NCBI GenBank assembly: GCA_007280125.1
Contig: QYPT01000044.1
Coordinates: forward strand, 1 to 56,710
From: Streptomycetaceae bacterium
GTDB lineage: Bacteria > Actinomycetota > Actinomycetes > Nanopelagicales > Nanopelagicaceae
Length of the DNA: 56,710 bases
Direction: 5' to 3'
The translations under genes were made by a program, and so were the position numbers. Positions 14,758 through 21,683 of the stretch are shown in pieces (positions within the stretch are counted from its first letter, which is position 1; every line of letters starts with the position of its first letter). A model generated the notes under the pieces. The model searched no databases, was not told the DNA's origin, and worked only from the letters and a program-made list of their open reading frames with translations.

Positions 14758-15522
14758 ATGTCATTTGAGCCTAAATTCAAGAGTTTACGCACAGCCCTCT
14801 TTATGGTGGGTGGCGCGGGACTGATGCTATTAGTAAGTGGTTGCTCGAGCGTCTCAGGTTTGGGTTTTGAAAAGGACTTGTCGAGCGTAAACGATGCTTC
14901 CATCGGCCTTTGGCAGGGCGCTTGGATAACTGCCGGAGTTGTTGGTGTGTTTACTGCTGGACTGATTATTTATTCATCATTCGCACATCGAAAAAAAGTA
15001 GGCGAAGAATTTCCGCGCCAAACCCAGTACCACGTTCCAGTTGAAATCGCTTATACGTTAATTCCCTTCATCATCGTCGCAGTTCTCTTTGCATTCACGA
15101 TGAAAGCAGAAAGTAAAATTACTGACAAATCACCCACACACGTAATGCATGACATTTCAGTTAATGGCATTCAGTGGTCATGGCAATTCACTTACCCAGA
15201 AGCGGGCGCAAATGCCACAGTAACTGGTACTCCAGCTAACCCGCCTACCTTGTACATGCCGCAAGGAGAGAGAGTGCGTTTCACTCTTAACTCAAGTGAT
15301 GTAGTGCACGGTTTCTGGATTCCTGCATTCATGATTCAAATACAGAATTTGCCAGGTGTGACCAATACCCTGGAATTCACAGCCAACAAGATTGGTGAAT
15401 TTCCTGGCCGATGCAACATTCTCTGCGGTCGCGATCATTCACGTATGTTCTTCAAGGTAAAAGTTGTTTCACCAGCGGATTATCAAAACTACTTAGCAGA
15501 ATTGAAAGCGAGCCAGTCATGA
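14758..15522 (+). CDS. ctaC: Cytochrome c oxidase subunit II
   Basis: CuA-bearing subunit of aa3 oxidase that receives electrons from the cytochrome bcc complex. The 254 residues start with a lipoprotein signal (LLVSGC, Cys29), followed by two transmembrane segments and a cupredoxin domain. The aromatic patch is WSWQFTYP, one CuA His lies in SSDVVHGFW, and the remaining ligands are in [12 protein letters not shown]. It opens the ctaC-ctaD-ctaF unit; its TGA overlaps the ctaD ATG. A leaderless promoter is likely. Confidence 0.96.
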
Positions 15523-17190: not shown

Positions 17191-17592
17191 ATGAAGGTCT
17201 CATGGCAGCTATTTCTCGGGTTCACTGTTTTCTATTTCATGATGGCAATAATTTATTGGCAGCTTGGCGGGGAAGCAGTTGGAATTACAGCAATTGGCCT
17301 TAGTGGCGGTCTTGCCGGCCTTGTCGGTTTTTATATCTGGTATTCAGCGAAGAACACCGGAGGAGTTTTGCCCGAAGATAACGAAGAGGGCGAAATAGCA
17401 GATGGAGCGGGCGATCTCGGTTTCTATAGCCCTCATTCATGGTGGCCGTTGCCGGTTGCGCTCTCTGCATGTGCAGCTGGTCTAGGTCTGATTATCGGAT
17501 GGTGGCTCACGATTATTGCGGTTGGTGCGCTTCTAATTAGCATCGTTGGTTTTGTCACCGAGTACGAGAAGCCTTCAATCTCCGCTCACTAA
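17191..17592 (+). CDS. ctaF: Cytochrome c oxidase subunit IV (CtaF)
   Basis: Actinobacterial small subunit of the aa3 oxidase. The 133 residues hold four hydrophobic segments arranged in two pairs around an acidic loop (PEDNEEGEIADGAGDLGFYSPHSWWP is the central conserved area, seen here as two parts). ATG 17191 lies 4 nt after the ctaD stop. The position third in ctaC-ctaD-ctaF and the YSPHSWWP segment are characteristic of the family. Confidence 0.92.
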   Translation: MKVSWQLFLGFTVFYFMMAIIYWQLGGEAVGITAIGLSGGLAGLVGFYIWYSAKNTGGVLPEDNEEGEIADGAGDLGFYSPHSWWPLPVALSACAAGLGLIIGWWLTIIAVGALLISIVGFVTEYEKPSISAH

Positions 17593-17593
17593 C

Positions 17594-18814
17594 GTGGAAA
17601 CCGGAACGAGCGCCCAAGGTGCTTTAGCTGCATATAGAAAGAATATTAAGGGGCTGCCGCAAGCTGCGACGTGGGGAGGATTATTCTCAGGCCTCTTAGT
17701 GGTCCTTGTCTCTACCACTGGTCCTCTAGCTATTTTATTTCAGGCAGCATCAGCGGGTCATTTATCGAAAGAAATCATTTCGTCTTGGCTATTGATGATC
17801 TTTCTCGGATCAGGGTTGTTCTCTCTTCTTCTTTCTCTCCGCCACGGTATGCCGATTATTGGAGCCTGGGGTTCGGCTACAACAGCGCTATTGGTTACGG
17901 GTTTACCAGAACATTCATTTTCTCAAGTCATCGGCGCGTACTTCGTAGCATCGATAGTTCTTCTAATCGTTGGTGTCACGAAAACTTTTGATTCAATTAT
18001 GAAATTGGTTCCACGGCCGGTAGTTATGGCCATGTTGGCCGGAATTCTCTTCCGCTTTGGAGTGGGTGTTTTTACTTCATTAAGTACCAATTTGATTTTA
18101 GGTCTATCAATGATTTTTGCCTTCTTTATCGGGCGCAGATATGGGTGGCGGGCACCAGTTGTCGCAGCCCTTGGCGTTGGTTTGGTTGTGGCTGGATTGC
18201 AATCCAAGCTCACGAATCCACACATTGCATTAGCCATCGCGAAACCAGTGTGGACGAATCCTACATTTGAAATCGGCGCCATCTTTACGTTGGCGCTACC
18301 CATTTTCTTAATGGTTCTTACAACGCAAAACGCAGCAGGAATAGCTGTTTTGCGAAATTCCAACTACCAGCCACCTGTCAATCACATTGTCACCTGGGGC
18401 GCGGTTCTTTCAATACTAGGCGCAGGATTTGGCGGGAGCGGAGTAAATGTTTCCACGATTACCGCGGCGATTGTTACGCAAGAGAGTGCGGATTCCAATC
18501 CAAAAACGCGATATTTTGCAGGTGTTTCTTGCGGATTTTTCTATATTCTTCTAGCTTTCTTTGGTGCAACGGTTACAGGTTTATTCCAATCAATTCCCGT
18601 GGAAATGATGGCGACCGTTGCCGGACTTGCTCTCATACCTGTAATTGCTTCTTCTTCGTATGATGCGTTGGCAGAACCCGGGTATCGAGAGGCAGGTTTA
18701 GCGACCTTGATGATTACGATCTCTGGTGTGAGTGCATGGCATTTAGGGTCTCCATTTTGGGGACTTGTTGGGGGAGTATTGATTCATCGCGTGACAGCAA
18801 GGAAAATTGCTTAA
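17594..18814 (+). CDS. BenE-family benzoate/H+ symporter-like transporter
   Basis: Membrane transporter of the BenE family, with the fold of nucleobase/anion carriers. The 406 residues have about ten to twelve hydrophobic segments and conserved stretches GAWGSATTALLVTG, LVPRPVVMAMLAGILFRFG and VLTTQNAAGIAVLRNSNY. GTG 17594 starts 2 nt after the ctaF stop; a longer frame from TTG 17546 would overlap ctaF, and neither start has a clear ribosome site. The substrate is not certain; benzoate is only the family name. It is unrelated in function to the oxidase genes it follows. Confidence 0.85.
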   Translation: METGTSAQGALAAYRKNIKGLPQAATWGGLFSGLLVVLVSTTGPLAILFQAASAGHLSKEIISSWLLMIFLGSGLFSLLLSLRHGMPIIGAWGSATTALLVTGLPEHSFSQVIGAYFVASIVLLIVGVTKTFDSIMKLVPRPVVMAMLAGILFRFGVGVFTSLSTNLILGLSMIFAFFIGRRYGWRAPVVAALGVGLVVAGLQSKLTNPHIALAIAKPVWTNPTFEIGAIFTLALPIFLMVLTTQNAAGIAVLRNSNYQPPVNHIVTWGAVLSILGAGFGGSGVNVSTITAAIVTQESADSNPKTRYFAGVSCGFFYILLAFFGATVTGLFQSIPVEMMATVAGLALIPVIASSSYDALAEPGYREAGLATLMITISGVSAWHLGSPFWGLVGGVLIHRVTARKIA

Positions 18815-18846: not shown

Positions 18847-19107
18847 CTATTTCGCAAGATCAGATAGGGCTTTTAGGAAATCTCCCTCACTGATCACCTG
18901 TGCGGTGAACGCCATACCTGAATGACCACGTCCACAGATTATGTTGCACAGGCCTGGATATTTTCCTAGTTTCTCCGCGGTGAAATCAAACTTTGTGGTG
19001 CTTTTCCGTGTCGTCTTGTCATCAAGGGTATATACAAAAGAGTTTGACCAAGAAAAGGCAACGATTTGAATGTTGCCTGAGCGCTTTACCGGACAAAGAG
19101 AATCGAA
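18847..19107 (-). pseudogene. Decayed CuA/COX2-like cupredoxin fragment behind qcrB
   Basis: This 293-bp gap between benE and qcrB is not empty. The minus strand encodes 86 codons in exactly the same frame as qcrB, separated only by its TAG stop. It contains an aromatic patch FSWSNSFVY and then TAEKLGKYPGLCNIICGRGH with SGM, closely like the CtaC segment ending [12 protein letters not shown]. Compared with CtaC about 45 residues between these parts are missing, including the first CuA histidine, and both transmembrane helices are absent. No ATG, GTG or TTG occurs before the copper-site motif. A dead paralogue of ctaC is the simplest reading; a non-standard start or UAG readthrough cannot be excluded. 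Confidence 0.7.
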
Positions 19108-20694
19108 CTAGTACGAATCGATCTCCTTGTGAGAATCTCCACCAGGTTTCTGGATTTGTTCTGCATCTGCACGGCTTAAGCGGGCACGAAGCTTGCCACC
19201 CATAGTCTTTGGATTGCGAATGCCATGCTCATCTTCAGTGACATGCTCCAAGGCAGTGAGCTGCTCGTGTTGAGTAAGCATCCAGGCCTTCTCTTTGGAA
19301 ATTGGCTCATGAACCTCAATGAATTCGCCTTCGGCGGTCATCATGAGTCGGCCCGTTTCTCTTCCATGCTCTACAAGATCTCTATCGGCCCGTTGCAAAG
19401 ATAGGCAGAGACGCTTGGTGATTACATAGGCAAGTGGAGGCAAGAGAAAAATACCAATGCGGCTAAACCACATGATCTGGTTAATCGTCAATGAGAAATG
19501 CGTGGCAATAATGTCGTTACCACCATTTAAAATTGTAATGATGATGAAGGTCAGTGACATTGCTCCAAGAGCGGTGCGGTTTGGTGCATTGCGTGGACGA
19601 TCCAATAGTTGGTGTTCGCGCTTATCTCCAGTAAACCAACTTTCGATAAAGGGATAGAGAGCCATTCCGGTAAAAAGAATGCCAGGAACGATTAACCCTG
19701 GAACCAAAATATTCCATGAAATTGTATGCCCAAAGGCATGAGTTTCAATAGGTGGCGCCATACGTACGAGGCCATCGAGCCATCCCATATACCAATCGGG
19801 TTGTGAGCCAGCAGAAATTTGCCCCGGCGTATACGGGCCGTAGAGCCAAATTGGGTTAATAGATGCCAGCGCTGACAAGAGTGCGATGACACCGAATACG
19901 ATGAAAAAGAATCCGCCAGCTTTAGCCATGTAGATAGGCATCAATGGGTAGCCGACTACATTCTTCTCTGTGCGTCCAGGACCTGGATATTGCGTGTGCT
20001 TCTGGTACCAGACCAACATCAAGTGGACGGTAATGAGTGCAAGGAAGATTCCAGGAAGTAGGAGAACGTGCACCGTGAAAATACGTGGGATAAAAGTATC
20101 TCCTGGGAATGCTCCACCGAAAGCAAAGAAAGCTAGATAAGAACCGATAACTGGCATCGCTTGAATGATTGCTTCCGCAATTCGAATACCGGTACCTGAA
20201 AGCAAATCATCAGGGAGTGAGTAACCCAAGAAACCTTCAACGATTCCAAGAGTAAGTAGACCGACTCCAATAATCCAGTTGAATTCACGTGGCTTGCGAT
20301 AGGCGCCAGTGAAGAAAACTCGGAGTAAGTGAGCAACGATTGCAGTCATGAAGAGCAACGCGGCCCAGTGATGGATCTGGCGCATCAATAAACCGCCACG
20401 GATATCGAAGGAAATGTGGAGCGTTGAAACGTAGGCTGCCGACATCTTCAATCCGCTGAGTGGTTGGTATGTGCCTTCATAAAGAACTTCGCGTTGTGAT
20501 GGATCAAACCAGAAGGTGAGAAATACTCCAGAGAGCAACAAAATAATGAATGAGTACAGTGCGATCTCACCAAGCATGAATGACCAATGGTCAGGGAAAA
20601 CCTTCGTGAGATTCTTCTTAAGCCACTTCGCAGCGCCAGTGCGCTCATCTACATAGTTAGCAACTTGTCCGCCCACGCGCTCGGATGCACTCAT
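19108..20694 (-). CDS. qcrB: Cytochrome bc complex cytochrome b subunit
   Basis: Membrane subunit that carries the quinol-oxidising and quinone-reducing sites and two b haems. The 528 residues include the haem His pairs in RQIHHWAALLF with VAHLLRVFF, and in FTVHVLLLPG with LITVHLML; the C-terminal part adds further helices and a long cytoplasmic tail ending HKEIDSY, as in other actinobacterial QcrB. ATG 20694 overlaps the qcrA stop as ATGA. The downstream sequence continues the same frame into a CuA-like remnant. Confidence 0.97.
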   Translation of the reverse strand: MSASERVGGQVANYVDERTGAAKWLKKNLTKVFPDHWSFMLGEIALYSFIILLLSGVFLTFWFDPSQREVLYEGTYQPLSGLKMSAAYVSTLHISFDIRGGLLMRQIHHWAALLFMTAIVAHLLRVFFTGAYRKPREFNWIIGVGLLTLGIVEGFLGYSLPDDLLSGTGIRIAEAIIQAMPVIGSYLAFFAFGGAFPGDTFIPRIFTVHVLLLPGIFLALITVHLMLVWYQKHTQYPGPGRTEKNVVGYPLMPIYMAKAGGFFFIVFGVIALLSALASINPIWLYGPYTPGQISAGSQPDWYMGWLDGLVRMAPPIETHAFGHTISWNILVPGLIVPGILFTGMALYPFIESWFTGDKREHQLLDRPRNAPNRTALGAMSLTFIIITILNGGNDIIATHFSLTINQIMWFSRIGIFLLPPLAYVITKRLCLSLQRADRDLVEHGRETGRLMMTAEGEFIEVHEPISKEKAWMLTQHEQLTALEHVTEDEHGIRNPKTMGGKLRARLSRADAEQIQKPGGDSHKEIDSY

Positions 20695-21683
20695 GATGAT
20701 CGCTCCCAGAAGCTAGGTCCGACAGGCTCGGAGAATGGTTTCTGTGCAATTAAGTAGCCTTCTGAATCAACGGTAATCGCTAATTGAGGAAGTGGTCGTG
20801 CAGATGGTCCGAAAATAACTTTCGCTGCACGAGGTACATCAAATGTTGATTGATGACATGGGCAAAGGAGATGTTTTGTCTGCTGCTCATAGAGTGCAAC
20901 AGCGCATCCCATGTGCGAGCAAATCTTTGAGAAGGCAATGATTCCTTCGTATGTCCAGGACAGGCGCTCAGGGGAGAGTTCGAACTCTTCAGGGCGAAGG
21001 CGAATAAGCAATACGGCATCTTTACCAATATTGCTTAGTGTGCGTTCTTCACCTGTGAGTAGTTGAGGCAAAACTTGAGCAACAGCGCCAACTTCAAGGT
21101 CCGAAGCTTTAATTGCGCGATCACCCGGATCGGTAACAAGACGAGTTCCGGTTTTCCAATTTGTGGTCTCCAGCTGCTTCTTAGGCAATGGACCAAGATC
21201 TCTCAAGAACAACAGTGGAGTAAGCGCTGAGAGACCCAGGGAAAGACCAAGGGAGCGCTTAATAAGTGAGCGACGACCAAGTCCTGATGCCGCAGCACCT
21301 TCTTTGACGGTGTCAACAAATCCCTTGCGGTCTACATCTTCTGAACGCATCACATGACGTTCGGCAATAATTTCATTATCTGGCATAAGTGTCTTTGCCC
21401 AATGGACAGCGCCTAGCCCAATAAAGAGAAGCGAAAGTCCAAGGCCAAGGCCTAAGAAAAGTTCGTGCGCATTTGTTGAACCCAATACAGGCAAGAAGAT
21501 GAATTCAGTGGTGGGAATGTAAATGTAGGAAGCGATAAAAAGTATTGTTCCAATGGCGCTGAGTGCGAAAAGAATTGCTACTTGTCGCTCTGCACGCTTT
21601 TCAGCAACGGGATCAGTATCGGCGGCGCGATGTACATGATCTGGTAAACCAGGATCAGTGATCGGCTCAAGTTCGTGTGACAT
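20691..21683 (-). CDS. qcrA: Cytochrome bc complex Rieske iron-sulfur subunit
   Basis: Transfers electrons from quinol to cytochrome cc. The 330-aa protein has an actinobacterial-type N-terminus with three hydrophobic segments and a C-terminal Rieske domain whose [2Fe-2S] ligands are in CSHMGCAV and CPCHQSTFD. A twin-arginine-like GRRSLIKRSLGLSLG precedes the third hydrophobic segment, consistent with Tat-assisted insertion. It lies 3 nt after qcrC and overlaps qcrB, forming one unit ctaE-qcrC-qcrA-qcrB. Confidence 0.96.
   Translation of the reverse strand: MSHELEPITDPGLPDHVHRAADTDPVAEKRAERQVAILFALSAIGTILFIASYIYIPTTEFIFLPVLGSTNAHELFLGLGLGLSLLFIGLGAVHWAKTLMPDNEIIAERHVMRSEDVDRKGFVDTVKEGAAASGLGRRSLIKRSLGLSLGLSALTPLLFLRDLGPLPKKQLETTNWKTGTRLVTDPGDRAIKASDLEVGAVAQVLPQLLTGEERTLSNIGKDAVLLIRLRPEEFELSPERLSWTYEGIIAFSKICSHMGCAVALYEQQTKHLLCPCHQSTFDVPRAAKVIFGPSARPLPQLAITVDSEGYLIAQKPFSEPVGPSFWERSS

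Follow-up and report, generated by a model that had tools for sequence, protein, structure and literature searches.

The window analysed here, a stretch of 56,710 nucleotides, carries on its minus strand an intact qcrB gene (19108..20694) ending with a TAG stop codon (19110-19108). Directly behind this codon the frame of qcrB stays open for a further 86 codons (19107-18850, minus strand) up to a terminal TAG (18849-18847), and the whole feature (18847..19107) is devoid of a start codon of its own. In its translation, FDSLCPVKRSGNIQIVAFSWSNSFVYTLDDKTTRKSTTKFDFTAEKLGKYPGLCNIICGRGHSGMAFTAQVISEGDFLKALSDLAK, a COX2/CuA domain is represented by its C-terminal half. FSWSNSF resembles an aromatic patch, and CNIICGRGHSGM (codons 54-65, 18913..18948, minus strand) is the remaining loop with CuA ligands. 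The first-pass annotation, which had described an open frame of 86 codons behind the qcrB stop, with a COX2 copper site and an aromatic patch and with no ATG, GTG or TTG before the copper motif, was correct on all these points, none of the three start codons being found ahead of codon 65, itself located within the CuA motif. The same window contains ctaC1 (14758..15522, plus strand), which encodes the working subunit II of the aa3 oxidase and scores above the NCBIfam NF050117 cut-off. Between ctaF and the remnant lies a convergent gene (17546..18814, plus strand) for a permease that, judging its sequence by eye, we take to be BenE-like.

When compared with the Pfam COX2 profile, the 86 residues gave a weak match (E 0.051; 13.9 bits, under the cut-off of 22). 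Values of E between 1e-20 and 1e-23 were obtained with intact proteins of the same genus, so that the coding likeness of the remnant is not due to chance. These proteins are the products of a separate CuA gene behind qcrB, for which the name ctaC2 was coined here, and nothing was found in the literature on the qcrB-ctaC2 locus. With the remnant as the query, 21 genomes of the genus, the window genome (G000) included, were searched. Besides ctaC1, a second match was returned in most of them. The comparison of the locus among relatives that had been recommended at the outset revealed a separate gene behind qcrB in 12 of the 21 genomes, a remnant only in two (the window genome and G004, where it is found on WLMD01000108.1 of isolate UFOp-RH-20apr16-193) and no match in the other seven, of which G003 is 74% complete with a contig that ends inside qcrB, making the absence less sure in this case.

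In the carriers ctaC2 has its own ATG, and its product exhibits a signal-peptide-like N-terminus and the full set of CuA ligands. The gene is open near qcrB in G005-G007, G009-G013, G015, G017 and G018, with the same orientation as qcrB wherever one contig holds both, and it faces ctaF or the permease gene in a convergent arrangement. Approximately 4 kb separate it from qcrB in G013, its N-terminal part is masked in G007, the contig of G006 stops short of qcrB, and in G008 its 5' half, directly behind qcrB, is cut by the contig end (L087:1-408), which is why it was missed in the first search. Intact copies are found, for example, at L093:1232-1861 and also on L091, L092, L094-L098 and L104. 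As to the neighbourhood, the permease gene was only seen in the clade formed by the window genome, G004, G015, G017 and G018, and in several species outside this clade ctaF and ctaC2 are directly convergent.

In a tree built from qcrB and ctaD, the two remnant-bearing genomes form one clade (100/100) nested within a larger clade that carries ctaC2, and the seven genomes in which no match was obtained cluster together (80/81). The simplest history is that of a gene old in the genus, with one full loss and one ongoing decay. Across a family-wide sample of 201 genomes, full-length matches to ctaC2 were confined to this genus, those outside it covering the CuA domain only, as ctaC1 does. No intact ctaC2 was detected elsewhere in the contigs of the window genome, with the proviso that the two MAGs with the remnant are 86% and 84% complete and a working copy could sit in the missing part.

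Alignment with the intact CtaC2 protein of G018 showed that the remnant starts at the end of the linker, proceeds to residue 120, and resumes at residue 161 to continue to the end. The missing internal part (residues 121-160 of G018 CtaC2, 40 residues) was thus removed without loss of the reading frame, the junction corresponding to codons 37-39 of the remnant (18991..18999, minus strand). In the AlphaFold model of intact CtaC2 the deleted stretch holds four predicted strands and the CuA ligand His143. Of the CuA ligands (His, Cys, Cys, His, Met), the first His is therefore missing from the remnant, confirming the earlier remark that the first CuA histidine region is missing, and prediction of its fold yielded no confident model (pLDDT 52.7). 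Both deletion junctions are identical in the window genome and in G004. A possible signal-peptide stub at the 5' side, in another frame (CGATTCTCTTTGTCC versus CGAATTTCTCTCTCC of G018, 11/15), would, if true, imply a frameshift; it was discarded because an equally good match is present elsewhere in G017.

The closest counterparts are the intact CtaC2 proteins of G017 (KR_bin-0338), G018 (Ja_bin-4140) and G015 (Ki1-1-6m_bin-0456), encoded in the same position behind qcrB. The 3' part of the remnant is 58-65% identical to them and shares the CuA loop CNI(I/V/L)CGRGH(S/A)GM; however, start, N-terminal region, linker and the 40 internal residues that include the first CuA histidine are all absent from the remnant. 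By taking into account the intact orthologues at the same place and the disabling lesions (two deletions and the lack of a start in the window, to which an in-frame TGA is added in G004), it is very probable that the remnant is what is left of ctaC2 as a pseudogene, in keeping with the dying ctaC paralogue that had been proposed. The intact gene is a further one of COX2 type and old in the genus, whose members are actinobacteria with small genomes. In the lineage shared by the window genome and G004, deletions have taken the start, the N-terminal region and the 40 internal residues, and a product is not expected, with no start codon available and readthrough yielding only a partial cupredoxin.

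The first-pass annotation had also put forward a product of UAG readthrough, in which a cupredoxin-like tail would extend cytochrome b. In its favour, the 86 codons that follow the TAG of the window are open, and in G017 the frame also runs open past the TAG into ctaC2. However, codon 5 behind the TAG (19093..19095, minus strand), which is TGT in the window, is an in-frame TGA in the sister species G004, a TAG is found at codon 2 behind qcrB in G018, the qcrB stop itself is TAA in G015, G009-G012 and others, and further early in-frame stops occur in relatives. Moreover, the tail would be without a full CuA site and much of the cupredoxin, and it would extend cytochrome b into the cytoplasm, the side on which the topology of this protein places its C-terminal tail. 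From the TGA of G004, together with the TAA or further in-frame stops of the relatives, the readthrough fusion is, at the level of the sequence, refuted for G004, and as a general explanation it has practically no likelihood left. Of the description of the domain as fused behind qcrB, the sharing of the reading frame stands, but otherwise ctaC2 is a separate gene in the nearest relatives, its ATG following the qcrB stop after 33 nt in both G017 and G018 and after 39 nt in G015, each time in the frame of qcrB. The shared frame of qcrB and the remnant is explained by this tight gene order, from which it was inherited, and selection for it need not be invoked.

A different possibility is that the shortened ctaC2 is translated into a protein of approximately 70-85 residues under selection, either from a rare start codon (for example ATT, codon 13) or by re-initiation past the qcrB stop. 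The pattern of substitutions, with a synonymous bias resembling that of coding sequence, and the preservation of the frame by the deletions speak for it and against the pseudogene. Between the window genome and G004, 18 substitutions were counted in the 86 codons (258 bases), approximately 12 synonymous and approximately six non-synonymous, including the stop, and a codon model of the whole frame gave an omega of 0.12, which rejects neutrality between the two genomes (2dlnL 16.3 against omega=1). The proposed check on synonymous and non-synonymous change thus returned mostly synonymous differences; by part, omega is 0.06 for codons 39-86 (eight synonymous and two non-synonymous differences) and 0.25, not significantly below 1 (2dlnL 3.1), for codons 1-38. 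In codons 1-31, a boundary chosen after seeing the data, there are four non-synonymous and no synonymous differences, which argues against a small protein, as do the lack of ATG, GTG or TTG ahead of the copper motif, the lack of a signal peptide, which would leave the product in the cytoplasm, the loss of the first CuA ligand and of four predicted strands, and the TGA at codon 5 in G004. Such a protein is considered highly unlikely, and marginally more so in the specific form of a non-exported product in which the half with the CuA loop has acquired a new role under selection. Even less credit can be given to an artefact by which the assembler created the deletions. Both genomes are MAGs, and in G004 the contigs are interrupted inside qcrB, where they overlap exactly over 129 bases, which points to a forked assembly graph. 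However, the two genomes are separate and each has substitutions of its own, yet their junctions are identical.

For the ctaC2 pseudogene, the omega of 0.12 between the two remnants is taken to mean that the decay is recent. Had the gene died before the lineages split, the synonymous bias would not be expected, yet the junctions are shared. Synonymous differences per site between the window genome and G004 amount to 0.21-0.28 in ctaC1, ctaD and ctaF, 0.19 in the 3' part of the remnant, 0.09 in qcrA and 0.04 in qcrB, and from these values qcrB probably lies in a region recently exchanged between the two lineages. A dip in synonymous divergence is observed at positions 19108-21683 of the window, suggesting recent recombination centred on the 5' half of qcrB. 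The deleted allele may have passed between the two already separated lineages by homologous recombination around qcrB, with an exchanged tract that would end just past the internal junction, so that the 3' part would retain the divergence accumulated when the gene was working, and the low omega would reflect divergence before the loss. We lean slightly towards such a transfer of the loss allele after the separation of the lineages, with the reservation that it needs the tract to end near the internal junction and that 18 substitutions are too few for proof. Thus, the remnant itself is a case of ordinary gene loss, caught fairly fresh, and the locus may be one in which a loss allele has moved between sister lineages by recombination.

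The intact ctaC2 is the more interesting object, being a CuA gene beside the bcc-aa3 genes that is old in the genus and has disappeared or degenerated in two branches. The protein, of approximately 210 amino acids, is built of a signal-peptide-like hydrophobic N-terminus, a small Cys/Lys-rich region with the conserved pattern C-x-K...C-x-K-x-G-K-K-x-x-W, a Pro/Ser/Thr linker and a CuA cupredoxin domain, in which the alignment shows all the CuA ligands to be conserved. The AlphaFold model is of modest confidence (pLDDT 57). CtaC2 shares the CuA cupredoxin domain with the CtaC/CoxB subunit II of aa3 oxidases (NF050117, TIGR02866, PF00116), of which the window ctaC1 is a full member. However, whereas CtaC2 exceeds the Pfam COX2 cut-off that the remnant fails to reach (34.7 and 40.4 bits versus 22), it is far under those for subunit II (81.5 versus 250 bits for NF050117; 83.2 versus 147.7 for TIGR02866), and no transmembrane hairpin is visible ahead of its CuA domain. 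Weak profile matches were also obtained with nitrosocyanin and with the CuA domain of nitrous-oxide reductase (NosZ), which have the cupredoxin fold, but CtaC2 is nearer to COX2 than to either, and its best solved relatives, by both sequence and fold, are COX2 CuA domains. Judging from its build, intact CtaC2 probably serves as an exported CuA electron carrier or oxidase accessory protein.

A second COX2-type gene of the window genome (G000:C95, L001:1432-2909), encoding a protein of 258 amino acids with several hydrophobic stretches, was considered as the missing copy and rejected, since it belongs to a different locus. It adjoins the gene for a 229-residue protein with a signal-like N-terminus that appears cupredoxin-like by eye, and the region is probably another oxidase locus.
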